The notes below the pieces were generated by a model. That model had not been told where the DNA came from, made no database searches, and saw only the letters and a program-made list of their open reading frames with translations. From assembly GCA_018061005.1 (NCBI GenBank), contig JAGOVA010000013.1:1-55731 (forward strand): a stretch of DNA of 55,731 nucleotides, given 5' to 3'. Origin of the DNA: Sterolibacterium sp. Lineage in GTDB: Bacteria; Pseudomonadota; Gammaproteobacteria; Burkholderiales; Rhodocyclaceae. Positions 12,035-27,079 of the stretch are shown here, in pieces. Numbering within the stretch: position 1 is the first letter of the stretch; every line of letters starts with the position of its first letter. Position numbers and translations under genes: made by a program.

Positions 12035-15022
12035 GTGCCCCCTTTAGTTTCTTCCTGGCGTTTCCTTCTGCTCGGCAATCTGTTGCTGGCTGCGGGGTAT
12101 GCGTGTCTGGCCAAACTGGTGATGATGTTGCTGGGGGGGCACAGTTCGGTTGCGCTGGTCTGGCCTTCCAGTGGCGTGGCACTGGCGGTGTTGCTGCTGG
12201 GCGGGCGCAGGTATGCTCCCGGCGTGTTTCTGGGGGCTTGGCTGGCCTGTGGGTGGACCAGCCAGAATTCGTTGTGGGTTTGTCTGCTGATTTCCCTCGG
12301 GGCGTTGCTCGAGGTGCTGGCCATCCATGAATGGCTGCTGACGCGCCCGGATTTTTCGCTGAAGTTTGACCGTTTGCGGCATTTTCGCCTGCTGATTCAG
12401 GCGGCTATTCCCGCTGCGGCGGTGGCGGCCTTTATCGGGGCGACCAGTCTGTTGCTGGGGGGAGCCCTGCCCGTGCAGGATTACGGGCTCAAGCTGTTGC
12501 ACTGGTGGCAGGGTGATTGGCTGGGCTTGTTGCTGGCCACGCCGATGCTGCTGGTCTGGCGTCGCCCGCCCTGGCGGCGCTGGTTACGGGCGGGTGGCTG
12601 GCATGTGGCGGAGTTTGTGGCTTTTGTTATTTTTCTGGTACTCATCGGCCAGATTGTCTACGTCGGCTGGTGGAGCGAGACTTTCGGTCTGGTGGCGCAG
12701 TCGTACTGGACCTTGTTGCTGCTGATCTGGGGGGCGACGCGCTTCGGACGGCATGGGGTTTTGCTGATGCTGCTGGTCAGCGCCATTCAGGGCTTGCTGG
12801 GCGTGGGGTTGGGGCAGGGGTTTTTTGCGGCTGACCTGGAGCGTACCGGGCTGGAAAACCTGTGGCTCTCTTTTGCTTTGGCAAACTGCGTGGGGGTCGC
12901 GCTCAGCCTGGCGATGCATGAGCGGGAGGGCGTCGAACGAGCTTTGCGTGCAGAGGCCGAGTTTACCGAGAGCATCATCCATAGCCTGCCGGGCTTGTTT
13001 TATCTGCTCGATGAGCACGGTTGCCTGATTCGTTCGAACCAGCATCTGCAGGAAGATTGTGGCTGTCCGGCCGAGCGGCTGGTTGGCTTGCCGGTGCTGG
13101 AGCTGGTGATCCCCGAGGATCGCGGCACGGATGCGGTGGGCATCCATCAGGCGTTTGAAACCGGCGAGGGGCAGGGCGAGGGGCGTGTGCAGCGACCCGA
13201 TGGGCGGCTGGTTCCTTATTCGTTTTACAGTCGGCGTTGCGTGCTGGGTGGAGAAACCCGCGTGCTGGGCGTGGCGCATGATGTTTCCGAGCGCAAGCGC
13301 ATGGAAGATGCCTTGCGCGCCAATGAGCAGCTGCTCAAGCTGGCGATCGAGGGCAGTGGTGATGCGGTGTGGGACTGGGATGTGACCAACCGCAAGGTGA
13401 CGCACAATTCACGCTGGAACACGCTGCTGGGCTATGACATTGACGAGGGCGATGCGGCCATCGGCACCTGGCAGGCGCTGACGCATCCGGATGATCTGGG
13501 TATCCACTACGCCAACCGGGACGCGCTGTTTGACGGCAGCACCCAGTCCACCGCGATAGAAACCCGGATGCGCTGCAAGGATGGCAGCTGGAAGTGGTTT
13601 TTGACGCGGGGCATGGTGGTCAGCCGCGATAAATCGGGTCGTCCTGCGCGGATCGTGGGCACCAATGCCGACATTACTTCGTTCAAAGAGCATCAGCGGC
13701 AACTGGAACATATCGCCCATTACGATGCGCTGACCGGTATGCCCAACCGCCTGCTGCTTGGCGCGCGTCTGCAGCAGGCGATGCAGGACAGCCAGCGGCG
13801 GGGCACGTCGATTGCCGTGGCGTATCTTGATCTCGACGGCTTCAAGGCGGTGAATGACCAGAATGGCCATGATGCCGGGGATACCTTGCTGGTTCAGTTG
13901 GCCCAGCGCATCAAATCGGCCTTGCGCGACTGCGACACGCTGGCGCGCATCGGCGGCGATGAGTTTGTCGCTGTGGTGGCGGATCTTGAGCGACCCGAAG
14001 CCTGCGAGGTGCTGCTGGAGCGTCTGCTGGTGGCGGCTGCAGCGCCGGTCTGGGTGGCGGGGCGCGAGCTGAAGGTATCGGCTAGCGTGGGGGTGAGTTT
14101 TTATCCCCGGGATGGCGATGAGGCCGATTTGTTATTGCGTCAGGCCGATCAGGCCATGTATCAGGCCAAGCAGTCCGGGCGTAATCGTTTCCACCTCTTT
14201 GATAGCGCGCAGGATGCGGCGGTGCGGATCCGTCATGAGTCGGTTCAGCATATCCGCCAGGCACTTAACCGGCATGAGTTTGAACTGTACTATCAGCCCA
14301 AGGTGCATATGCGTAGCGGTAAACTGGTCGGGGTGGAGGCGTTGATCCGCTGGCATCATCCTGAACGGGGCTTGTTGTCACCGGCGGCATTTCTGCCGCT
14401 GATCGAGGAGCAGGCGATTGCGGTCGAGCTGGGGGTGTGGGTGATCGAAGCCGCGCTCGGGCAGATGGAACGCTGGCTCGATCAGGGGCTGGAAATTGCC
14501 GTCAGTGTGAATGTCGGCGCGCAGCATTTGCAGCAAAAGGATTTTGTCGCCAGTCTGGGGCAGTTTCTGGCCGCCCATCCCCGGGTGTCACCGTCCAGCC
14601 TGGAACTGGAGGTGCTCGAAACCAGTGCATTTGAAGATGTGGCGCGGGTTTCCGAGGTGATCCGGGTTTGTCAGGCGCTGGGCGTGCGGTTTGCGCTGGA
14701 TGACTTCGGGACGGGCTATTCGTCGCTGACCTATCTCCGACGACTGCCCGCCGAAACCTTGAAAATCGATCAGAGCTTTGTGCGCGACATGCTGGAAGAT
14801 CCGGACGACATGGCGATCGTCGAAGGGGTGATCGGGCTGGGTAACGCCTTTCATCGCACCCTGGTGGCCGAGGGCGTTGAGACGGTGGCACAGGGCGTGG
14901 CGTTACTGCGGCTGGGCTGTGAAGTGGCGCAAGGCTATGCGATTGCTCGGCCGATGCCAGCGGCTGCGCTGGTCGCCTGGTTGCCCGTCTGGCGGCCAGA
15001 TGCCCGCTGGAGCGCGGGATAA
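12035..15022 (+). CDS. MASE1-PAS(2)-GGDEF-EAL protein
   Basis: This 995-residue paralog of the preceding gene keeps the same order: MASE1 membrane sensor (about residues 10-290), two PAS repeats, GGDEF at 640-644 with an RDCD inhibitory site five residues before it, and EAL at 768-770 with DDFGTGYSS. It lacks two of the four PAS repeats and the CZB tail, ending soon after EAL. Translation appears to start at GTG 12035, which has GGAG about ten bases upstream. It should be an inner-membrane protein of c-di-GMP turnover. The 111-base gap shows no terminator, so the pair may be cotranscribed. Similarity across both proteins suggests a tandem duplication followed by domain gain or loss. Confidence 0.85.
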   Translation: MPPLVSSWRFLLLGNLLLAAGYACLAKLVMMLLGGHSSVALVWPSSGVALAVLLLGGRRYAPGVFLGAWLACGWTSQNSLWVCLLISLGALLEVLAIHEWLLTRPDFSLKFDRLRHFRLLIQAAIPAAAVAAFIGATSLLLGGALPVQDYGLKLLHWWQGDWLGLLLATPMLLVWRRPPWRRWLRAGGWHVAEFVAFVIFLVLIGQIVYVGWWSETFGLVAQSYWTLLLLIWGATRFGRHGVLLMLLVSAIQGLLGVGLGQGFFAADLERTGLENLWLSFALANCVGVALSLAMHEREGVERALRAEAEFTESIIHSLPGLFYLLDEHGCLIRSNQHLQEDCGCPAERLVGLPVLELVIPEDRGTDAVGIHQAFETGEGQGEGRVQRPDGRLVPYSFYSRRCVLGGETRVLGVAHDVSERKRMEDALRANEQLLKLAIEGSGDAVWDWDVTNRKVTHNSRWNTLLGYDIDEGDAAIGTWQALTHPDDLGIHYANRDALFDGSTQSTAIETRMRCKDGSWKWFLTRGMVVSRDKSGRPARIVGTNADITSFKEHQRQLEHIAHYDALTGMPNRLLLGARLQQAMQDSQRRGTSIAVAYLDLDGFKAVNDQNGHDAGDTLLVQLAQRIKSALRDCDTLARIGGDEFVAVVADLERPEACEVLLERLLVAAAAPVWVAGRELKVSASVGVSFYPRDGDEADLLLRQADQAMYQAKQSGRNRFHLFDSAQDAAVRIRHESVQHIRQALNRHEFELYYQPKVHMRSGKLVGVEALIRWHHPERGLLSPAAFLPLIEEQAIAVELGVWVIEAALGQMERWLDQGLEIAVSVNVGAQHLQQKDFVASLGQFLAAHPRVSPSSLELEVLETSAFEDVARVSEVIRVCQALGVRFALDDFGTGYSSLTYLRRLPAETLKIDQSFVRDMLEDPDDMAIVEGVIGLGNAFHRTLVAEGVETVAQGVALLRLGCEVAQGYAIARPMPAAALVAWLPVWRPDARWSAG

Positions 15023-16189: not shown

Positions 16190-16283
16190 GCGGTCATTCC
16201 TGCGGCAGCAAAGCCGCTATTTTTGCATGCGGGTCTGCACCCTGACGAACTGAAATAAAATCGCGTTTTCTGTGGCGGGTGGC

Positions 16284-17165
16284 ATGAAGATGAATTTATC
16301 CATGAGCAAGCGGTGGGTGCTGGCGCGCGCGCTGGTTGCGGGCGGGGCGGCTTTTTTGCTGCAAGCCGCGTGGGCGGGGGAATCTGTCCATCATCTGGGC
16401 ATGCGTTTCGTCGATATCCCGGCGGGACGGTTTGACATGGGGGCGTGCAAGTTCGCGCCGGGGCAGGCAGCTTGTTCGTCGGGAGCGGCCACCGATCCGG
16501 ATGCTTACGCCGATGAAACGCCGCAGCATCCGGTGACGCTGAAGGCGTTTCAGATGGGGCGCACCGAGGTGACGCTCGGGCAGTTCCGGCGGTTTGCCGA
16601 GGAAAGCGGTCAGGCGGCTTTGCTTGATGCGAAGTTTCGTCGCGCGAACGAAGGGCAGGGCGATAGCACCCCCGTGGTGCAGGTAAGCTGGGAAGATGCA
16701 CAGGCGTTCATGGCCTGGCTCAATCGCAGCAAGCCTGCACAGGATCGGGCGGTGTACCGTTTGCCCAGCGAGGCGGAATGGGAATACGCCGCACGCGGCG
16801 GCACGAAGGCGCGATATTACTTTGGTGATGCGGTGAATAAAGGATTCGGGCAGTTTGCCTGGTATGACAAGAACGCCGGCAACCGTCAGCGGGTGGTGGG
16901 CGGCAAGAAGCCGAATGGCTATGGCCTCTATGACATGCTCGGCAATGTCTGGGAATGGACGGAAGACTGCTGGAACGCGGGGTATGCCGCTGCGCCCGCC
17001 GATGGCCGTGCCTGGCTGCAAGGCGATTGTGCACGGCGTGTGGTGCGCGGTGGTTCGTGGTTTGATGTGCCGCCGTATTTGCGGGTGACGGTGCGCTTTG
17101 GCGATCGCGCCACACGGCGCATCAATTATGTCGGCTTCCGGGTGGTGCGCGTGCCCTTGCCGTGA
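16284..17165 (+). CDS. Exported SUMF1/FGE-sulfatase-domain protein without catalytic Cys
   Basis: The product (293 residues from ATG 16284) has a signal peptide ending near LLQAAWA, then a formylglycine-generating-enzyme fold: IPAGRFDMG, MGRTEVTLGQF, LPSEAEWEYAARGG, GLYDMLGNVWEWTED and RVVRGGSWFD to VGFRVVR. True formylglycine-generating enzymes use a Cys pair in the last block; here that block contains no Cys. It therefore looks like one of the many exported SUMF-domain proteins of unknown role, possibly carbohydrate- or envelope-related. Several in-frame starts (GTG 16272, ATG 16284, 16290, 16302) leave the N-terminus uncertain. It converges on the NosR-like gene with a 14-base gap. Confidence 0.75.
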   Translation: MKMNLSMSKRWVLARALVAGGAAFLLQAAWAGESVHHLGMRFVDIPAGRFDMGACKFAPGQAACSSGAATDPDAYADETPQHPVTLKAFQMGRTEVTLGQFRRFAEESGQAALLDAKFRRANEGQGDSTPVVQVSWEDAQAFMAWLNRSKPAQDRAVYRLPSEAEWEYAARGGTKARYYFGDAVNKGFGQFAWYDKNAGNRQRVVGGKKPNGYGLYDMLGNVWEWTEDCWNAGYAAAPADGRAWLQGDCARRVVRGGSWFDVPPYLRVTVRFGDRATRRINYVGFRVVRVPLP

Positions 17166-17179
17166 GGCGTCGCGGTGGC

Positions 17180-19873
17180 TCAGTTGGGTATGCTGGGCGG
17201 TGCCGGTTCCAGCCAGCTCATCCCCGGCAAATGCTGCAGCCATTGCCCCAGGCCGGTGTCGTGAGCCATGACAAAGAACAGCAGTGAGGCGAGCAGGAGG
17301 TTTTTGATGCCCACATAGGCGGCCATGTCGGCCCATTGGGCGGGGCGGAAGTGGCGCGCCCACCAAGCGCCTTCGCGCACCACAGGTTTGACTTTCATGC
17401 GGACGGCGACTTCGTAAAGGCTCCAGGCCAGCCACCAGCCGAGGATCGGTGGATGATCGAGCCGACCGGCCGCCCCCAGGAGCCAGGCCCAGGTGGTGAG
17501 TGCGGCCAGCAGCAGACCGATGAGGTTGTAGAGGAGGTCTTCCTTGACGACGCTGCCGCGCCACGGGAAGAGATCGATCAGCTCCGCGCCCATCCAGGCG
17601 GCGACACTCAGGCGTACCACAGGTATAGCTGGCGTCGGCGGTGTTGGCAGCGTGTGGTTAGCCTGAGCCAGCGGCAGGATGGGGATGAAATAGCCATTCG
17701 CGCCGGTGGGCGTGAGCGGTTGCCCGGTTTTGCCCCGTTGCTTGCGCTCTTTGGCGAGTGGCGGGCAGGCGTGGTCGTCGTAGTAGAGAATCATGCAGTC
17801 CAGACACAGCAGACATTCGCGCGGATCGATTTGCCCGCTCTTGCGGTCGATGGCTTGTGATTCACAGCCCACCGCGCAGGCTTTGCAGGGGCCACATTCA
17901 TTCTTGCGCTTGAGCCCCCACCAGCGGAAGGTGGAGGGAATCGCGAGGCTTGCCCCCAGCGGGCAGAGGTATTTGCAGAAGGGGCGTTCGGTGAAGAGCG
18001 AGGCCAGGATCAGCAGCGTCCAGAGCAGGACGTAAGGCCAGCTCCGGTTCCAGACACCGACGAGGAAGGTGGTTTTGAAAGGTTCGATTTCAGCGAGTTG
18101 TTCGGCCAGTTCCAGCGAGTGGAAGGAGGCGGCGAACAGGCCGAGGAATACGGCGTATTTAAGCCACTTCAGCGCGTCATGCAGGGCAACGGGCAATTCC
18201 TTCTGCCAGCGTTTGAGCCCGAGTTTGCCGGCGATCTTGTAGAGCAGTTCGGTCATCGTGCCGTAGGGACACATCCAGCCGCAGAACATGCCGCGCCCCC
18301 AGAAAAACACGGTGATGATGATGAACCACCAGAACAGGAAAATGAACGGGTCGGAAAGGAATAGCGGCCATTCCCATTTGAACAGCAGGGCGTGGAGCAG
18401 GGTCAGCACCTGGGTGATCGAGGGTTGCGCCATCAGGAAGAATCCTGCGTAACCGATGGCGATCAGCCACAGGGTGTATTTGGGGAGGTTTACCCAGCGG
18501 CTGTCCTTGTGTGAGGCGCGGCGGATCAGCGGATCGCGCAGGGCGTAGAGCGTGCCGCCGCCGAGCAGGAACAGCAGGAAGCCTGCGATTTCCAGCGGGC
18601 GGCTTTTCCAGATACGCAGCCAGGTTGGGTCGGGCGGCGTGTAGCTGGGGCGGCCGCCTTGCAGGTAGTGGCCGGGTAGCCAGTAGGTCTTTTCAAAGTT
18701 GGTGAATATGGGTTGCCGGGTTTTGGGGTCGGGCTTGCTGCCGCGAAAGATCAGCCGCCAGGGGTAGGCGGCTGAAAAGTTGGGGCTACGCAGAATGAAA
18801 ATGGCGGCTTCGGAGTAGGGCGGGGCATGGGGCGCATGAAGGCTGTCGAGCACCAGTGAGTCGATGTCGCGGAAGGTGAAGGAGTCCATGTCCTGACCGA
18901 TGAGGATGCGGTCGAAAATGCCGCCATGTACGAAGCCCACGCCCTTGAAGGATTCCGTGCCGTTGCCGATCACGGCAATGGCGTGTTCGTCTGGCTTGAG
19001 GCGCGCCATGAGGTTTTCGTAACCTTCTTCGCCGAGCAGGCTGCGGCCGATGTCCGGGGTGTTCAGGTCGCCGAAATACAGGTCCATGTAGGGTCGCCCC
19101 GTGCTGGGCAGCCCCACGGCAGCCGGTTCCACGGTCAGCCGCTGGAGGCTGCCTTCGGCAACCAGGGTAGGCCAGTCTTTGAGTTGAGACGTGGCGGGAG
19201 CCAGGCGGGCGGGTGGCCGTTCCAGGCTTTTGAGGATGCCGACTTGTTTGGCAATGGCGATGCCGGAATGCAGTACCACCTGATTTTCGGCGATCACGGT
19301 GACGGTTGCGCCGCTGATGGCATCGAGGCCGATGACGCCTTCGTTCGGGCGGGATTCACCGATTTCAATCTTGTCGCCGACGTATTTGCCGACGTACTGG
19401 TTGATGAAGTGGATCAGCACGCTTTCGGGGATGCCCGAGAGCAGCAGTGGCTCGGCGTGCTTGAGGATGCGGATGCCGGTGAGGTTGCCTTGCAGATTCA
19501 TGCCGATCAGCGTGATCAGCGGTTTGCCGGAATAGCCGGGGATATCGACGATGTCGGTGGAGAGAAAAACGTAGCCGATCAGCTGGCGTTGCGCGCTGCT
19601 GGGCGGGCTGCCGGGGAGGGTGCCAGGAGGGCTGCTGTAGGCCTCGACATAAGGTGGCTTGCCCATGCGCGGGGAGAATTGCTGGGCGCCAGGCATGACC
19701 TCCGCGCAGGGGGCGTGGGCGCAGAGGTCCGGGTCGCTGAAGAGCTGTTCCGGCAGGGCGCGATCAAAACTGCTGGCGTGAGCCGGCAGGCCTGCAAGGA
19801 GCAGGATGGACAGCAGGCACAGCATGTATATGGCCATTGCGTTGCCAGGCGTGCCGTGGCCGGTGAGCTTCAT
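17180..19873 (-). CDS. NosR/NirI-like membrane flavo-iron-sulfur protein
   Basis: The 897-residue protein has a signal peptide (to about residue 33) and a periplasmic FMN-binding domain with SGAT at 187-190, whose Thr is the usual covalent flavin site. Membrane segments start at about 428, followed by CGWMCP (531-536) and CKYLCP (633-638), then Cys 660/663/666/670 and 687/690/693/703, suited to two [4Fe-4S] clusters. This is the NosR/NirI layout; NosR passes electrons to periplasmic nitrous-oxide reductase. As I recall the family, members end soon after the ferredoxin part at roughly 700-760 residues; here about 185 more residues add two or three hydrophobic segments. No nosZ, nosD or nir genes are nearby. 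It is the last gene of a co-oriented group with MoxR, GGDEF and VWA genes. The substrate protein is unknown. Confidence 0.82.
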   Translation of the reverse strand: MKLTGHGTPGNAMAIYMLCLLSILLLAGLPAHASSFDRALPEQLFSDPDLCAHAPCAEVMPGAQQFSPRMGKPPYVEAYSSPPGTLPGSPPSSAQRQLIGYVFLSTDIVDIPGYSGKPLITLIGMNLQGNLTGIRILKHAEPLLLSGIPESVLIHFINQYVGKYVGDKIEIGESRPNEGVIGLDAISGATVTVIAENQVVLHSGIAIAKQVGILKSLERPPARLAPATSQLKDWPTLVAEGSLQRLTVEPAAVGLPSTGRPYMDLYFGDLNTPDIGRSLLGEEGYENLMARLKPDEHAIAVIGNGTESFKGVGFVHGGIFDRILIGQDMDSFTFRDIDSLVLDSLHAPHAPPYSEAAIFILRSPNFSAAYPWRLIFRGSKPDPKTRQPIFTNFEKTYWLPGHYLQGGRPSYTPPDPTWLRIWKSRPLEIAGFLLFLLGGGTLYALRDPLIRRASHKDSRWVNLPKYTLWLIAIGYAGFFLMAQPSITQVLTLLHALLFKWEWPLFLSDPFIFLFWWFIIITVFFWGRGMFCGWMCPYGTMTELLYKIAGKLGLKRWQKELPVALHDALKWLKYAVFLGLFAASFHSLELAEQLAEIEPFKTTFLVGVWNRSWPYVLLWTLLILASLFTERPFCKYLCPLGASLAIPSTFRWWGLKRKNECGPCKACAVGCESQAIDRKSGQIDPRECLLCLDCMILYYDDHACPPLAKERKQRGKTGQPLTPTGANGYFIPILPLAQANHTLPTPPTPAIPVVRLSVAAWMGAELIDLFPWRGSVVKEDLLYNLIGLLLAALTTWAWLLGAAGRLDHPPILGWWLAWSLYEVAVRMKVKPVVREGAWWARHFRPAQWADMAAYVGIKNLLLASLLFFVMAHDTGLGQWLQHLPGMSWLEPAPPSIPN

Positions 19874-19921
19874 GGGGATGGACGGTGGGAGTTCAGCCGA
19901 CGCGCATTGCGGATCAAGCGG

Positions 19922-21094
19922 TTATTTGTTGAGCTGGCGCATGGCCTGTTCGAGGCCGTCGAGGGTGAGCGGAAACATGCGCCCGCCCATCAGGTTGTGG
20001 ATGAGCTGGATGGAGTGGCGGTAGTCCCAGAGTCGTTGTGGCTCCGGGTTGAGCCAGGCGGCATGCGGATAACGCTCCAGCAAGCGTCCCAGCCAGACAG
20101 CCCCCGGCTCTTCGTTCATGTATTCGATGTTGCCCCCCGGCTGGACGATTTCGTAGGGGCTCATCGTGGCATCACCAACGAGGATCAGTTTGTAGTCGTC
20201 GCCATATTTGTGCAGCACATCGAGCAGCGGGTAACGCTCGGTCTTGCGTCGCTGGTTGTCTTTCCAGACGTAATCGTAGATGCAGTTGTGGAAGTAGTAA
20301 TATTCCAGGTGCTTGAATTCGCTGCGCGCGGCGGAGAACAGTTCTTCGCACAAACGGATGTGGTCATCCATCGAGCCGCCGACATCAAGGAATAACAGGA
20401 CTTTGACCTTGTTGTGCCGTTCTGGGCGCATTTTCAGGTCGAGCCAGCCAGCATTCTGCGCCGTGCCCCGGATGGTGCCGTCCAGATCGAGTTCTTCGGC
20501 GGCTCCTTCGCGGGCAAAGCGGCGCAGGCGGCGCAGGGCGACCTTGATGTTGCGTGTGCCCAGGTCGACAGAATCGTCGAGGTTACGGTAGCTGCGTTCT
20601 TCCCAGACCTTGATGGCGGTGCGGTTGCCCGCCGAGGGGCCGCCGATGCGGATCCCTTCGGGGTGGTAGCCGCCATGCCCAAAGGGCGAACTGCCGCCGG
20701 TGCCGATCCATTTGTTGCCGCCTTCGTGACGTTCCTTCTGCTCGGCCAGCCGCTCCTTGAACTGCTCCATGAGCTTGTCCCAGCCGAGTTTTTCGAGCTG
20801 TGCTTTTTCTTCAGGCGTGAGATGCTTTTGCATCATCTGGCGCAGCCAGTCTTCAGGAATGTCGGCTTCAAGGCCGGGGATTTCCGTCACACCATGAAAA
20901 TAACTGCCAAAGGCGCGGTCGAACTTGTCGTAGTTCGACTCGTCCTTGATGAGGCAGGTGCGCGCGAGCACATAGAAATCGTCGAGGCTGTGCCCGGCCA
21001 GACGTTGCTGGAGGGCTTCGAGCAGGGTCAGAAATTCGCGCGTCGATACAGGTAGCCGGGCCGCTTTGAGGTGCAGGAAAAAATCGATCAGCAT
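19922..21094 (-). CDS. VWA-domain (CoxE-like) protein
   Basis: In this 390-residue soluble protein the first 220 residues are charged and helical, with a Gly-rich patch near 125-155. A von Willebrand A domain starts at about 228, with the metal-site loop DVGGSMD at 237-243. This replaces the canonical DxSxS with DxGGS, as I recall from this bacterial VWA family. Such proteins pair with MoxR AAA+ ATPases, as in NorD/NorQ, CbbO/CbbQ and CoxE/CoxD, to activate metalloenzymes. The cognate MoxR gene lies two genes upstream on the same strand. The start lies 30 bases after the GGDEF-protein stop, and its end is 48 bases from the NosR-like gene. Confidence 0.85.
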   Translation of the reverse strand: MLIDFFLHLKAARLPVSTREFLTLLEALQQRLAGHSLDDFYVLARTCLIKDESNYDKFDRAFGSYFHGVTEIPGLEADIPEDWLRQMMQKHLTPEEKAQLEKLGWDKLMEQFKERLAEQKERHEGGNKWIGTGGSSPFGHGGYHPEGIRIGGPSAGNRTAIKVWEERSYRNLDDSVDLGTRNIKVALRRLRRFAREGAAEELDLDGTIRGTAQNAGWLDLKMRPERHNKVKVLLFLDVGGSMDDHIRLCEELFSAARSEFKHLEYYYFHNCIYDYVWKDNQRRKTERYPLLDVLHKYGDDYKLILVGDATMSPYEIVQPGGNIEYMNEEPGAVWLGRLLERYPHAAWLNPEPQRLWDYRHSIQLIHNLMGGRMFPLTLDGLEQAMRQLNK

Positions 21095-21124
21095 GTTTCG
21101 TGACAGGGAGGCACTGCCGCTTGG

Positions 21125-23371
21125 TCAGTCGGGCAAACGGGGCAGTGGGGTGGCTTCGTGTGTGTCGTGAGCATCTGCATGAGACGTGTCCGGCGATGCC
21201 GTGGGTTCGGCTGCGTCGGGGTGTTCAGGTGCGCTGACAGGTGCGTTGGCAGGTGACATTTCGGCGTTGATTTCAGGAGCCAGCGTCGCCGGGTTGGCGG
21301 ACGAGCCGGGTTGATCTTCCGTCGCGTAGAGGATGGCGCGGTTGCGGCCTTCGTGTTTGGCAATGTAGAGTGCCTTGTCGGCATTGTTGGTGAGTTCGTC
21401 CGTGGTGGCGCCGTGCATCGGGTAGATGGCAATGCCGATCGAGAGGGTCGTGCCGATCATCGAGTCGCCAAACGGGATTTTGGTCGCGGCAAATTTTTCG
21501 CGCAGCGTGTTGGCGCGGTCGATGGCCGTGGCGGTCGGCATCTTGGGCAGCATCAGCATGAATTCTTCACCGCCGTAACGGCAGGCGACGTCACCTTCGC
21601 GGGCATGATCCTGCATGATTTTGGCGAAGGTCTTGAGGACTTCGTCACCGGCCAGATGGCCGTAGGTGTCGTTGATTTTCTTGAAGAAGTCCAGGTCGAG
21701 CAGGATCACGCAGAGCTGATAGCTTTCACGCTTGGCGCGTGACAGTTCGCGCTTCAGGGTTTCGTCGAGATAACGGCGGTTATGCAGCCCCGTCAGCGGG
21801 TCACGCACGGCCTGTTCCTGCAGTTTTTCCTGGAGTTTCTTGATTTCATCGAATTGTTCACGCAGGTCGGTATTGGCCTTGGTGAGGGCAATTTCCATTT
21901 GTTTGCGTTCGGTGATTTCCTGGGTGACCACCGCAAACTTGCCCGGCGCGGGGCTGTAGGCATCGGTGGCAAACCAACGGCAGGTTTTTTGCGAGAACTT
22001 TTCAAAACGCTGGGGCTGGCCGCTCTTGGCGACTGCGCCGAATTGTTCGAGCCAGCCGTCGTCGCTATCCTGCAGCACTTCCTTGGCGCGTTTGCCGAGC
22101 AGCTTTTCACGTGGCATGCCGGAAACTTTTTCAAAGGCAGGGTTCACTTCGAGGAAGCGGTAATCGATCGGCGTGCCGTCGGTGTCGCAGACGATCTCGT
22201 TGAGTGCGAAACCATTGTCCATCGAGGTGAACAGGCCACGGTAACGCTCTTCGTTGGCGCGAAGCTGTTCTTGCAGGGCGGTCTGGCGTTGACGTTCGAT
22301 GCGAAGTGCGTACTGGGTGCGCGCCAGACGCCAGGAAACGAAGATAAACAGGAGGACGAGTAACGCGCCAACGCCGCCGATGAGCCCCATGATCTTGTAA
22401 TCAAATGCAGGGGTTTCTTTCTTGGGGGGTGGGGGTGCCGGGTTGAAGAGGAAGGTATTGAGTTCCGGGGTTTTGTCGATTTTGCCGAGGCTGGTGTAGG
22501 TCGCGCCGATCTTCTGCCAGCGATCGGGGGTCTGGGTGCCGATGCTGATGTAGTCGACGCCGATGAGTTTGGCGATCTGGCTGGCCTGATGCATCAGAAA
22601 CTCGCGGTCGCGACGTTGCGAGTATTTGCTGCGGATGAGCTCGGCGATTTCTTCCTGGTGCGCCAGGGCATATTTCCAGCCACGCAGGCTGGCTTCGCGG
22701 AAGGCGCGCACCCGGTCGCCTTGCTCGTTGACCATGTTTTCCGAGGTGAACAGGTTGTCACCATAAAAATCAATGCCGTCTTTTTCAGGGGCATCGGTCT
22801 GGTAGGCGAAACCGGCTTGATCCAGTAACCGGGTTTCGTTCAGCAGGGAGCCTGACATGGCTTCGACCTTGCCTTTGATGAGATCTTGCGGGTCGTAGCT
22901 GGGTTCGACGCGGGTGATGCGGTTCAGCAAGTTTTGTTTTTTCAGCAGCGCCGCAATTTCTTCGGCTTGCATGTCCAGCATGACGCGTTTGCCGGCTAGT
23001 CCCTGTATGTTCTGGTTTTTGCCACGCGCCCGGCTGATGAGTACCATCGGCGAGTGCTGGAAAATCGTGGCCAGTGAAACGACGGGGCGACCCGCCGCGC
23101 GGGCGAGCAGCAGGTTGCTGTCGGAAATGCCGAATTCGGCTTTGCCGGAGATGACATCAATGACGGGATCCACCCCGATGCGGGATTCGACGAGGCTGAC
23201 ATCCAGCCCGGCCTGCTTGTAATAGCCCTGCGCGATGGCCGCGTAGTAGCCGGCAAAGCCGAACTGGTGATAGGAATTGAGCTGCAGGGTGACCTTGTCC
23301 AGCGCGCTGGCCGGCAGGGCAATCAGCGCAGTGAGCAGCAGCAGGAGTTTGGTCAGGGTGGACGTTTTCAT
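21125..23371 (-). CDS. Substrate-binding-protein/PAS/GGDEF fusion (ligand-sensing diguanylate cyclase)
   Basis: The 748-residue protein begins with a signal peptide (to about 24). A periplasmic NMT1/THI5-like solute-binding domain (about 26-310; YHQFGFAGYYAAIAQGYYKQAGLDV) follows, then one membrane span at 327-348, a PAS domain (375-490), a short coiled coil and a GGDEF-type domain with GGEEF at 600-604. An RxxD inhibitory site (REGD) lies five residues before GGEEF, so it should be an active, product-inhibited diguanylate cyclase. The C-terminal 45 residues are Ala/Pro-rich and disordered. The ligand is unknown; NMT1 relatives bind thiamine precursors, taurine or nitrate-like solutes. Its ATG shares one base with the MoxR stop (TAATG at 23369-23373), so translation is coupled. 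Confidence 0.88.
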   Translation of the reverse strand: MKTSTLTKLLLLLTALIALPASALDKVTLQLNSYHQFGFAGYYAAIAQGYYKQAGLDVSLVESRIGVDPVIDVISGKAEFGISDSNLLLARAAGRPVVSLATIFQHSPMVLISRARGKNQNIQGLAGKRVMLDMQAEEIAALLKKQNLLNRITRVEPSYDPQDLIKGKVEAMSGSLLNETRLLDQAGFAYQTDAPEKDGIDFYGDNLFTSENMVNEQGDRVRAFREASLRGWKYALAHQEEIAELIRSKYSQRRDREFLMHQASQIAKLIGVDYISIGTQTPDRWQKIGATYTSLGKIDKTPELNTFLFNPAPPPPKKETPAFDYKIMGLIGGVGALLVLLFIFVSWRLARTQYALRIERQRQTALQEQLRANEERYRGLFTSMDNGFALNEIVCDTDGTPIDYRFLEVNPAFEKVSGMPREKLLGKRAKEVLQDSDDGWLEQFGAVAKSGQPQRFEKFSQKTCRWFATDAYSPAPGKFAVVTQEITERKQMEIALTKANTDLREQFDEIKKLQEKLQEQAVRDPLTGLHNRRYLDETLKRELSRAKRESYQLCVILLDLDFFKKINDTYGHLAGDEVLKTFAKIMQDHAREGDVACRYGGEEFMLMLPKMPTATAIDRANTLREKFAATKIPFGDSMIGTTLSIGIAIYPMHGATTDELTNNADKALYIAKHEGRNRAILYATEDQPGSSANPATLAPEINAEMSPANAPVSAPEHPDAAEPTASPDTSHADAHDTHEATPLPRLPD

Positions 23372-24222
23372 TATCTGTGGTTCCTCGCCATGAAGAGCAG
23401 ACGTTCAAACAGATGGACATCCTGCTCGTTTTTGAGCAGGGCGCCGTGGAGTGGAGGGACAGCTGTTTTTTGATCTTTGCTACGCAGTGCCTCGGGGGGG
23501 ATGTCTTCGGCCAGCAGCAGTTTGAGCCAGTCGATCAGCTCGGAGGTCGAGGGTTTTTTCTTGAGGCCGGGGATCTCGCGCAACTCGAAGAAGACTTCCA
23601 GTGCCTCGCGCAGCAACGCCTGTTTGATGCCGGGAAAGTGCACATCGACGATGCTCTGCATGGTTTCTTTGTCGGGAAACTTGATGTAGTGGAAGAAACA
23701 GCGGCGCAGGAAGGCATCGGGCAATTCCTTCTCGTTGTTCGAGGTGATGAAGATCAGGGGGCGCTGGCGTGCCTTGATCAGCTGGCGTGTTTCGTAGACA
23801 TGGAATTCCATGCGGTCCAGCTCGCGCAGGAGGTCGTTGGGGAATTCAATGTCGGCCTTGTCGATTTCGTCGATCAGGATGATGCAGGGACGCTCTGCCT
23901 CGAAGGCCTGCCACAGCACGCCTTTGACGATGTAGTTGCCGATGTCATGCACTCGCGCGCCGGCATCGCCGCCCAGCTGCGAGTCGCGCAGGCGTGAGAC
24001 GGCATCGTATTCGTACAGACCCTGCTGTGCCTTGGTCGTGGATTTGATGTGCCATTGCAGGAGCGGCATGTCGAGCGCGGCGGCGACTTCTTCGGCCAGC
24101 ATGGTTTTGCCGGTGCCGGGTTCGCCCTTGATCAGCAGGGGGCGTTGCAGGGCGATGGCCGCATTGACGGCGAGTTTGAGGTCGGGGGTGGCGATGTAGT
24201 TGGAGCTGCCGGTGAAACGCAT
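23371..24222 (-). CDS. MoxR-family AAA+ ATPase
   Basis: The 283-residue ATPase has Walker A GEPGTGKT at 33-40, Walker B with the DE pair at 118-119 (IILIDEID), sensor TSNNEKELPDAF, and the arginine finger in FLRRCFFHYI. MoxR proteins act as chaperone-like ATPases with a VWA partner to insert cofactors into, or activate, metalloenzymes. The partner is probably the VWA protein two genes downstream. This subgroup is close to CoxD-like ATPases by its N-terminal GSSNYIATPDLKLAVN. The start lies 60 bases after the DUF1841 gene on the same strand. Confidence 0.9.
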   Translation of the reverse strand: MRFTGSSNYIATPDLKLAVNAAIALQRPLLIKGEPGTGKTMLAEEVAAALDMPLLQWHIKSTTKAQQGLYEYDAVSRLRDSQLGGDAGARVHDIGNYIVKGVLWQAFEAERPCIILIDEIDKADIEFPNDLLRELDRMEFHVYETRQLIKARQRPLIFITSNNEKELPDAFLRRCFFHYIKFPDKETMQSIVDVHFPGIKQALLREALEVFFELREIPGLKKKPSTSELIDWLKLLLAEDIPPEALRSKDQKTAVPPLHGALLKNEQDVHLFERLLFMARNHR

Positions 24223-24282: not shown

Positions 24283-24720
24283 CTAGATTTTGCGGCGCAT
24301 ACATTCCAGGTAGGCCGCGCCATCGGGCGGCTGCGCTTCACGCTGGGCACGCCAGAGGGTTTCGCCCAGGCATTCGAGAATCTCGTGCAATGCGGCGTGG
24401 CGTTCGCCGTGGCGTTGTTGCAGGCGCTCGGCCATGGCGCGGATGCCGGGGGGCTGGTCGATGGAGAGTTGTTCTTCGATGGCCAGATGCAGCGAGAGGT
24501 GCAGGAAAGGGTTGCTTTCGCCCTGTTCGGGTGTCCATTCGCGTGCCAGAAGTTCATCCAGGTCATCGCCGGGTGCGCCGAGCAGGCTGTGATACTCCGG
24601 GTGCAGGCGAACGAGGTCGGTGGCGATGATTTCCATCGGTGTCATGGGACGGTTTTGTAGCTGTTTGTGCCAGGCGTCGACAAAGAAGCGGCGCGCCTGG
24701 TCACGCGAGGGATTGAACAT
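24283..24720 (-). CDS. DUF1841 family protein
   Basis: This 145-residue cytosolic protein begins MFNPSRDQARRFFVDAW and contains HPEYH and NPFLHLSLHLAIEEQLSIDQPPGI, the pattern of the DUF1841 family of beta- and gammaproteobacteria. It is His-rich in the middle, but no metal site is established. Function is unknown. It lies 11 bases downstream of nth on the same strand, so the two are very likely cotranscribed. Confidence 0.85.
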   Translation of the reverse strand: MFNPSRDQARRFFVDAWHKQLQNRPMTPMEIIATDLVRLHPEYHSLLGAPGDDLDELLAREWTPEQGESNPFLHLSLHLAIEEQLSIDQPPGIRAMAERLQQRHGERHAALHEILECLGETLWRAQREAQPPDGAAYLECMRRKI

Positions 24721-24731
24721 GGCGGGAGCCT

Positions 24732-25388
24732 TTAGAGCAGTTTGTCGGGGTAGTCACACAGGTCGTTGATGAGGCAGCGTCCACATTCAGGCTTGCGTGC
24801 CTTGCAGCAGTAGCGGCCATGCAGGATCAGCCAGTGGTGGGCATCCAGCAGAAATTCGGGCGGGACGGATTCTAGCAGCCCGGCTTCCACGGCTTTCACG
24901 TCCTTGCCGCGCGCCAGCCCTGTGCGGTTGGCGACGCGGAAAATGTGGGTATCGACGGCGATCACTGGCTCGCGAAAGATTGTGTTGAGAATGACATTGG
25001 CAGTTTTGTGGCCAACGCCGGGCAGCGCTTCGAGCGCGGCGCCATCATGGGGGACTTCACCCTGATGGCGTTCGAGGAGCAGGCGGGACAGGCCGATGAC
25101 GTTTTTGGCTTTGGTTTTATAGAGGCCAATCGTGGAGAGCGCCTCGCGTAGCCGCTCTTCACCGAGTGCCAGCATGGCGGACGGGCTGGCTGCCTGTTTG
25201 AAAAGTGGGCGTGTGACCAGGTTGACGCTTTTGTCGGTGGCTTGTGCCGAAAGTACCACGGCGACCAGGAGCTGGTAGGGCGTGGCGTATTCCAGTTCGG
25301 TTTGCGGCTGTGGGTTGGCTGCACGCAAGCGGGTGAATATCTCGGCGCGGTGCAAGCGGGTGGCTGGGGCGGCGGATTTTCGCTTCAT
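24732..25388 (-). CDS. nth: Endonuclease III
   Basis: Endonuclease III is a DNA glycosylase/AP lyase for oxidised pyrimidines. Visible features are the [10 protein letters not shown] helix-hairpin-helix with catalytic Lys128, catalytic Asp146 in AVDTHIFRV, and the [4Fe-4S] ligands Cys 195, 202, 205 and 211 in the C-x6-C-x2-C-x5-C spacing. I start at ATG 25388, giving 218 residues, closer to E. coli Nth (211); an in-frame ATG at 25409 would add seven residues. In E. coli nth ends the rsxABCDGE-nth operon; here it lies on the same strand downstream of rsxE, but a chemoreceptor gene on the opposite strand separates them. Confidence 0.95.
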
Positions 25389-25429
25389 GGGTCGAGTATA
25401 CTTTTCCATACCCTGTTTGTAAGGACGTC

Positions 25430-27079
25430 ATGATGGATTGGTTCAGAAACCTGAGTATCCGCTGGAAGTTTCAGCTGGCTTTCTTTGTGGTGACGATGGT
25501 GACGACCATCTTCAATCGCTGGCTGGGCTCTTATGAGCTGGAAAAAATGATCGACATCGCGCGGGTAGGCGGTGCGTCTGCGGAGGTCATCACGCGGCTG
25601 GCGGAAGACCGGATGGCGTATATCTACAACTCTTTCTGGGAATCCGGGCTTGAGTTTGCCGTGCAGTTTGTGGTGATCGGCCTGATTGCGAATGTGTTCG
25701 TGCGGCCGATCCAGGAGCTTTGCAACGCGCTGGAAGCGGTTGAAAAGGGCGATCTGACCAAGGGAGTGGTGCATACGCAGCGCGATGAGATCGGCGTGTT
25801 GCAGCGTGTTTTCAACGATGTGCTGGGCAAGCTCAACCGTATCCTGGGTGAGGTGGATCAGAGCAGCAAACAGATGGGGCAGTCGGCTTTCCAGATTGCG
25901 ACCATCGCCAAGAGTATTGCCGAGGTCAGCCGTCAGGAAGAAAGTCGTTCCGAAGAGGTGGTGCGGGCGACCGAGGAGCTCAATGCGATTGCGGTTGAGG
26001 CGCGCGATCTGGCGCAAAGCGCGGCGGAGCAAACGCGAAATGCGGAGCAGGAAGGCCGGGGGGCGATCGGGACGGTGCGGCGTAACATCGAGGAGATGGA
26101 TGCGACGGTCACCGAGGTGAATCGTGTTTCCGACGAGATTTTTCAACTGGCGGAAGTGGCCGGGCAGATTACCAGCATCATCGATTCGATCAAGGAAATT
26201 TCGGCGCAGACCAATCTGCTGGCGCTCAATGCCGCTATCGAGGCCGCGCGGGCGGGCGAGCAGGGGCGCGGGTTTGCGGTGGTCGCCGATGAGGTTCGCA
26301 AGCTGGCGGATCGAACCACGCAATCCGCTTCGGGTGTGACCGTGATCGTCGATACCCTGGCCGGCCGTGTTGATGCGGTGCGTTCAGCGATCGGCGCGGT
26401 GATCGACAAGGTGCATGCAGGGCAGCGCGTGGCCGCAGAATCCGCACGGGTGATCGAATCCATGGCGCATGAGGTGAGCGAAGCGGCTTTGGCGAATGAC
26501 CAGATTGCCGATGCCAGCCGTCGCCAGCTCGATCAGTTCAGCCAGATGCAGGGTTCGCTGGAGCGGCTGTTTGCCACGCTGGCCGAGAGTTCCACCAAGG
26601 TGGAAACCACCGCGCATATTGGCGATGATTTGCACCGGGTGACCGGCCGCATGACCGACCTGATGTCCGGCTTTGTCATCCAGGAGGAGTTGGTTCGTAC
26701 CTTCTACAAGACTTCAAACGATAAGCGTGAGCATCCGCGCCTTGAATACGGCATGCTCACGGAGGTGATGCAGGGGGATGGGAGCGGTGGCCAGGAGGCA
26801 CTGGCGGTGGATTTCAGCCTGACGGGGGTGCGCCTGTCGCTGGCGCATGCGCTCAAGCCTGATGCGGCGTTGAGCCTGCGCCTGTGGCCGCCTGCTGCGG
26901 ATATTCAGGTTTATCAGCAGCAAAAGCCGATCGAAATCGCGGCGCGTATTGCCTGGCAGCGGGTTGAAAACGGCAAGCCCATGGCGGGTTTGGCGTTTAT
27001 CAATGTGACGGATGCCCAGCGCAATCGTTTGCGCGAGTGTTTCGATTACTTCAGCAAGTCGGCGGAGTATGTTCGCTGA
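25430..27079 (+). CDS. Methyl-accepting chemotaxis protein with C-terminal PilZ domain
   Basis: The 549-residue chemoreceptor has membrane segments at about 14-28 and 74-91 around a periplasmic loop of only about 45 residues, so it probably senses something in or near the membrane. A HAMP region (92-145) and a methyl-accepting signalling domain follow, with the conserved hairpin tip ([27 protein letters not shown]). After this lies a PilZ domain: REHPR at 433-437 and DFSLTG at 461-466 match the RxxxR and D/NxSxxG c-di-GMP-binding motifs. The receptor could thus tie taxis to c-di-GMP level. AAGGA lies before ATG 25430. No che genes are in the window. It lies between rsxE and nth on the opposite strand. 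Confidence 0.87.

Follow-up and report, generated by a model that had tools for sequence, protein, structure and literature searches.

What does a gene for a diguanylate cyclase (DGC) do between the genes of a MoxR-type AAA+ ATPase and of a VWA protein, and how did a NosR-like protein come to be encoded directly behind them? The question is raised by a block of four genes at positions 17180..24222 (minus strand) of a 55,731-nt stretch of Sterolibacterium sp. DNA, which as a whole is called the window here. From upstream to downstream, and all on the minus strand, the block holds open reading frames (ORFs) for a MoxR-type ATPase (23371..24222, 283 aa), a DGC with a solute-binding protein (SBP) domain (21125..23371, 748 aa), a CoxE-type VWA protein (19922..21094, 390 aa) and a second NosR of this genome, NosR2 (nosR2, 17180..19873, 897 aa). 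A first-pass annotation, made from the sequence, had reported these four co-oriented genes, and the ORFs together with Pfam and NCBIfam matches bear it out. The spacing that it gave is also as described: the stop codon of MoxR and the start codon of the cyclase share one base in TAATG (23371..23371, minus strand), 30 bases lie between cyclase and VWA, and 48 between VWA and NosR.

The reading that we favor, with a probability of about two in three, is that of a layered operon, in which an old MoxR–VWA core has received a cyclase whose sensor has been replaced in different lineages, and to which a NosR gene was added in the window's genus. The point deserving attention is that a cyclase with differing sensors lies between MoxR and VWA, and not the four genes taken as one system. 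The first-pass observation itself is confirmed, and its interpretation is partly supported.

A diguanylate cyclase recurs between MoxR and VWA genes

A search of 199 genomes from this betaproteobacterial family gave a VWA match in 123, and we examined 120 loci (the window and 119 others). Left out were two partial matches (G212 and G061) and genome G103, whose contig begins 301 bases upstream of VWA, with the tail of a GGDEF gene immediately ahead of VWA. MoxR lies upstream of VWA and co-oriented with it in 117 of the 120 loci; two of the remaining three have only 352 and 1511 bases of upstream contig, and the third has 4.5 kb in which MoxR is lacking. A set of relatives searched separately (61 genomes, the window's own and 60 others) has the VWA protein in 37, with MoxR upstream in 34 of 36 fetched loci and with DUF1841, nth and rnf genes often further upstream.

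We refer to the space between MoxR and VWA as the slot, and call it empty where the gap is below 250 bases. A DGC occupies the slot in 23 of the 117 loci, 15 times with an SBP-type sensor and eight times without; the eight carry MASE2 (two) or PAS (six). All 23 end between -11 and 47 bases from the VWA start. The first-pass annotation had singled out a cyclase within a MoxR–VWA pair as an unfamiliar arrangement; the arrangement recurs, although the four-gene unit around it is not conserved. Judged by titles and the openings of abstracts, we found no published account of a c-di-GMP (cyclic di-GMP) gene with a MoxR–VWA pair.

The other occupants are an HDOD protein (18 loci), a YcgR-like PilZ protein (two) and a mixed remainder of 12 (TIR six, GxxExxY two, Rce1-like two, GNAT one, and one 75-aa ORF). 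For the HDOD, TIR, PilZ, GNAT and GxxExxY genes the assignment relies on similarity to a single member of each kind, and Pfam scans covered three of the 18 HDOD, one of the six TIR, and both PilZ and both Rce1-like genes; GNAT and GxxExxY are names that we presume to apply, without a family call. Both PilZ proteins have YcgR-type PilZNR and PilZ domains with the motifs RxxxR and DxSxxG.

Twenty arbitrary 20-kb regions of relatives, 400 kb in all, contain three GGDEF genes, so that a random slot gene would seldom be a DGC. The 23 loci do not amount to 23 events, since the slot cyclases appear related. Counted by kind, two of the eight kinds of slot gene (DGC and PilZ) are c-di-GMP genes, and three would be if HDOD, as we assume, belongs with them. 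This share is suggestive of a functional tie and is not proof of one.

Some GGDEF genes lie near the pair in other ways. At five loci (L054, L055, L058, L060 and L039) a GGDEF gene stands just after VWA and convergent with it, 1.1–1.4 kb from the VWA start; four of them are among the 13 order-level loci from outside the family and one belongs to the family, and they represent a second kind of c-di-GMP gene beside the pair. A betaproteobacterial metagenome-assembled genome (L181, 1-850) encodes a VWA protein of 64% identity with a GGDEF reading frame directly upstream, a hint that slot cyclases also exist outside the family.

Domains and history of the slot cyclase

The window cyclase consists of an NMT1/THI5-type solute-binding domain (residues 37-241; PDB relatives 4nmy and 3ix1), a hydrophobic stretch, a PAS domain (about 375-490) and a GGDEF domain (521-678; 176.3 bits, Pfam) that contains GG(D/E)EF and RxxD (AREGDVACRYGGEEF). 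The active site, GGEEF with RxxD, is intact in all 23 slot cyclases. The THI5-like domain would lie in the periplasm and bind a small ligand, and c-di-GMP would be made by pairing of the GGDEF domains in the cytoplasm; the suggestion of the first-pass annotation that the system may be ligand-gated would fit the SBP domain.

A GGDEF tree was built from 47 rows, 23 of them slot cyclases and 24 others (the top match in other relatives and one additional hit). The slot label changes three times on this tree, compared to a mean of 16.0 for shuffled labels (0 of 500 shuffles as low). Rows with and without SBP mix, in that the window's genus groups with two MASE2 rows (91/92) and three SBP rows form a supported clade with two PAS rows (99/97). 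Distances among slot GGDEF domains correlate with those of the MoxR–VWA pair (Mantel r 0.47, p 0.0001, n=23; 0.41 without the window's genus, n=19), as do those of the SBP domain (r 0.50, n=15; 0.65 without the window's genus). On the MoxR–VWA tree the DGC loci are scattered among empty-slot loci. The slot cyclases cluster in the GGDEF tree and are not one proven clade.

As we read these patterns, the slot cyclase is an old insertion, a membrane DGC that would have been kept by mostly vertical descent across the family and lost many times, with its N-terminal sensor replaced on several occasions by SBP-PAS, MASE2 or PAS; transfer from slot to slot may also have played a part.

Insertion tolerance or a functional tie

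The same gene history is compatible with a different view of function. The slot may simply tolerate insertions, and the cyclase may ride along with no functional tie to the chaperone, kept for a use of its own such as periplasmic sensing for the control of biofilm or motility. We give this a little less than an even chance. It draws on the empty slots, the variety of slot genes and the cyclase of G019; these and further observations also weigh against the layered reading. The slot is empty in 62 of 117 loci, so the pair does without a slot gene there, and TIR, GNAT, Rce1-like and GxxExxY genes are among the six gene kinds that it holds besides DGC and PilZ, which points to a general tolerance of insertions. 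A PAS-GGDEF gene of genome G019 (L331, 2664-6228), which pairs with a slot row in the tree (91/92) without being one, stands after nth and between DUF1841 and a conserved downstream gene, where MoxR and VWA are missing from their usual site while the cyclase persists; cyclase and chaperone therefore need not work together. VWA was not found in the G019 genome, which is 79% complete, and MoxR was not sought elsewhere in it. GGDEF genes are common, with 10 to at least 54 matches in 24 of 25 family genomes searched, and the tree omits the other GGDEF genes of slot-bearing genomes. Of 200 bootstrap trees, 0% gather the slot cyclases as one side of a branch; 19 of the tree's 44 inner branches are open, and the bootstrap had yet to settle. 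A second non-slot row, from G006, has an open position in the tree and no nth/DUF1841-type context in its 10 kb.

Two points speak against a slot filled at random. Over the family the cyclase stays in one place while its sensor differs, and the YcgR-like PilZ gene, found in two further genomes, makes two of the eight slot kinds plainly c-di-GMP genes. These would suit a chaperone under c-di-GMP control, whose slot protein feeds c-di-GMP locally into MoxR–VWA, or is its client, such that remodeling of a client would answer to an outside ligand. Recurring occupancy, the tight spacing to VWA and the alternation of a DGC with a PilZ receptor in one slot are what such control would lead one to expect; the loose phyletic coupling, with 62 of 117 slots empty and a cyclase surviving alone at the site in G019, is not, and we consider direct action of this kind unlikely. 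Under it, each lineage would plug a different outside signal into the chaperone by keeping the catalytic core and exchanging the sensor, which we likewise consider unlikely.

The TIR genes raise another possibility, that MoxR, slot gene and VWA are related to the MoxR–vWA ternary conflict systems, the third component being exchangeable. The slot protein of L228 has a TIR_2 domain by Pfam, and those of L250, L253, L254, L258 and L287 resemble it by similarity; the ternary systems are described in PMC7159879. Against such kinship, the TIR genes keep no tight spacing to VWA (63 to 348 bases at five loci; in the sixth the ORF call overlaps by 242) and are confined to one part of the MoxR–VWA tree, and in the window PADLOC gave no match for VWA, cyclase or NosR and only weak AAA-type ones for MoxR (best 38 bits). 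We regard this as a long shot. The L228 slot protein itself has a weak ThsB-type PADLOC match (31 bits).

The MoxR and VWA proteins

The core of the layered operon would be an old CoxD/CoxE-like pair, in which an AAA+ ring and a VWA adaptor remodel a client protein. The ATPase matches AAA_5 (54.3 bits) and AAA (52.5 bits) in Pfam. Its best NCBIfam match is MadB (NF047784) at 114.7 bits, far below the cut-off of 475, and membership of the MadB family was rejected on this score. We take it to be a MoxR, as did the first-pass annotation; no library call gives that name.

The VWA protein matches VWA_CoxE at 36.5 bits (Pfam cut-off 26.4), and its predicted model has N-terminal helices, a poorly modeled middle and a VWA-like fold at 227-390. 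Where a canonical metal ion-dependent adhesion site (MIDAS) has DxSxS, this protein reads DVGGS; across 32 rows D237, G239 and G240 are invariant and S241 is conserved in at least 90%. Nine genes of the window were scanned for families (nth, DUF1841, MoxR, DGC, VWA, NosR, FGE-like, thioesterase-like and MCP), and no CO dehydrogenase, NO reductase or rubisco client is among them. Co-translation with MoxR and VWA may tie the level of the cyclase to that of the chaperone.

Downstream of VWA, 23 of the 120 family loci (e.g. L036) encode a conserved protein that is about 213-238 aa long and whose N-terminus resembles a signal sequence. The two examples scanned gave no Pfam match, and none of these genes was seen in the window's genus.

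NosR2 and nitrous oxide respiration

NosR2 has an FMN-binding domain with SGAT (on the ApbE target motif, see PMC8238504), a membrane part with CxxxCP motifs, ferredoxin-type cysteines and a C-terminal extension. In Pfam, Fer4_5 matches in two stretches and FMN_bind is borderline (21.4 against a cut-off of 22). NosR2 scores 569 bits on NCBIfam NF046105, below its cut-off of 1000; the NosR beside nosZ in this genome falls short as well, at 620 bits, which indicates that this cut-off is unsuited to the NosR clade here. Twelve cysteines (531 to 703) are identical in all 39 rows of a NosR alignment that includes NosR2, and the SGAT flavin site is present.

The first-pass annotation had remarked that no target reductase gene is nearby. 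This is true of the window, which has no NosZ match and where NosR2 is not beside nosZ, but not of the genome, whose contig C106 carries a clade I nosZ directly beside another nosR. Further ORFs of C106 are, by our reading, presumably nosD, nosF, nosY, nosL and heme d1 genes. NosR2 is 61.9% identical to the nosZ-linked NosR of its own genome over residues 21-856 of the latter. In a FastTree tree of 38 rows, NosR2 and its counterparts in G002 and G003 form one clade that groups with the NosRs of G007, G177 and G195 (96), all of which are beside nosZ, while the nosZ-linked NosRs of the window's genus form a separate clade (99). This sequence kinship suggests that NosR2 came out of a nos-type lineage, either through transfer or through an old duplication. 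It would be an intact spare NosR, most likely serving the nitrous oxide reductase that the genome encodes elsewhere, and the "unidentified periplasmic redox enzyme" suggested in the first-pass annotation becomes unnecessary.

A NosR gene follows VWA in three of 120 family loci, all in the window's genus. The two genes are tightly spaced in the window, and a DUF4197 gene intervenes in G002 and G003. A fourth genome from this genus, G001 (88% complete), lacks NosR in the 2.3 kb of contig that remain beyond VWA and has only one NosR in total. Over the 61 genomes of the relatives set, MoxR–VWA and NosZ are found together no more often than chance would give: VWA is present in 10 of 13 genomes with NosZ over the cut-off and in 27 of 48 others (Fisher p 0.22), or, with NosZ taken at 360 bits or more, in 14 of 23 and 23 of 38 (Fisher p 1.0). 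NosR2 is a late neighbor of MoxR–VWA, present there only in the window's genus.

These results bear on the explanation that was first put forward for the block, in which four genes would form a dedicated system and, by way of the NosR-like protein, mature or power a periplasmic reductase yet to be identified. The compact, co-directional order in this genome is in keeping with it. A conserved co-occurrence of the four families in this order was not found across the 120 family loci, two of the three NosR adjacencies are interrupted, nosZ has another nosR by its side elsewhere in the genome, and the pair and NosZ do not track each other. We judge such a system to be very improbable.

Layout of the locus and neighboring genes

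The block continues upstream in the same direction with a DUF1841 gene (24283..24720, minus strand), 60 bases from MoxR, and nth for endonuclease III (24732..25409, minus strand), 11 bases further on (TIGR01083, 261.4 bits; NCBIfam cut-off 211.7), so that the co-directional run comprises six genes: nth, DUF1841, MoxR, DGC, VWA and NosR. A site scan of the minus strand placed no terminator-like site within the gaps of the block. Promoter-like sites number two against a shuffled mean of 1.9, and terminator-like sites 13 against 10.0 (standard deviation 2.4); being near the shuffle level, these counts neither support nor refute a single transcript.

Adjoining this run, 25430-27079 (plus strand) encodes a chemotaxis receptor whose C-terminus carries a PilZ domain (HAMP, MCPsignal and PilZ by Pfam). 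Its counterpart follows nth in G001 (68% identity) and is absent from the G002 and G003 stretches. On the other side, 12035-15022 (plus strand) encodes a 995-aa protein that looks like PAS-GGDEF-EAL by sequence, without a family call; counting this candidate, three c-di-GMP-related genes lie within about 15 kb. An FGE/SUMF1-like gene (16272-17165, plus strand) is convergent with NosR, and this pair is kept in G002 and G003.

Implications and comparison with known systems

Many MoxR–VWA pairs are, to our knowledge, without a known client or trigger. A c-di-GMP synthase placed between MoxR and VWA over a whole family, with differing sensors, is a candidate trigger and poses a testable question. 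The slot cyclase appears, moreover, to be a natural example of a sensor being replaced while the gene keeps its genomic position, and NosR2 illustrates that an operon that seems purpose-built can have accreted from parts that differ in age.

Several parts of the locus can be compared with known systems. NosR2 shares its cysteines and SGAT with the NosR of clade I nosZ clusters, but it is a second copy, downstream of VWA and away from nosZ. The window cyclase is like NMT1/THI5-type sensor diguanylate cyclases in its NMT1, PAS and GGDEF domains and in GGEEF and RxxD, and differs in that slot cyclases recur inside a chaperone gene pair, with related members bearing different sensors. The closest known MoxR–VWA chaperone pairs are CoxD/CoxE, NorQ/NorD, CbbQ/CbbO and RavA/ViaA, the action of such pairs being treated in papers on NorQD (PMC9976466) and on ternary systems and CoxD–CoxE (PMC7159879). 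In contrast to these, none of the scanned neighbors in the window is a cox, nor or cbb client, the VWA protein has D-x-G-G-S rather than DxSxS, and a cyclase gene separates MoxR from VWA. Finally, the MoxR–vWA ternary conflict systems, as presented in PMC7159879, are alike in combining MoxR and VWA with a variable third gene; VMAP, iSTAND, FtsH and beta-propeller components were not seen in the Pfam scan of the window genes, with no dedicated search made for them.

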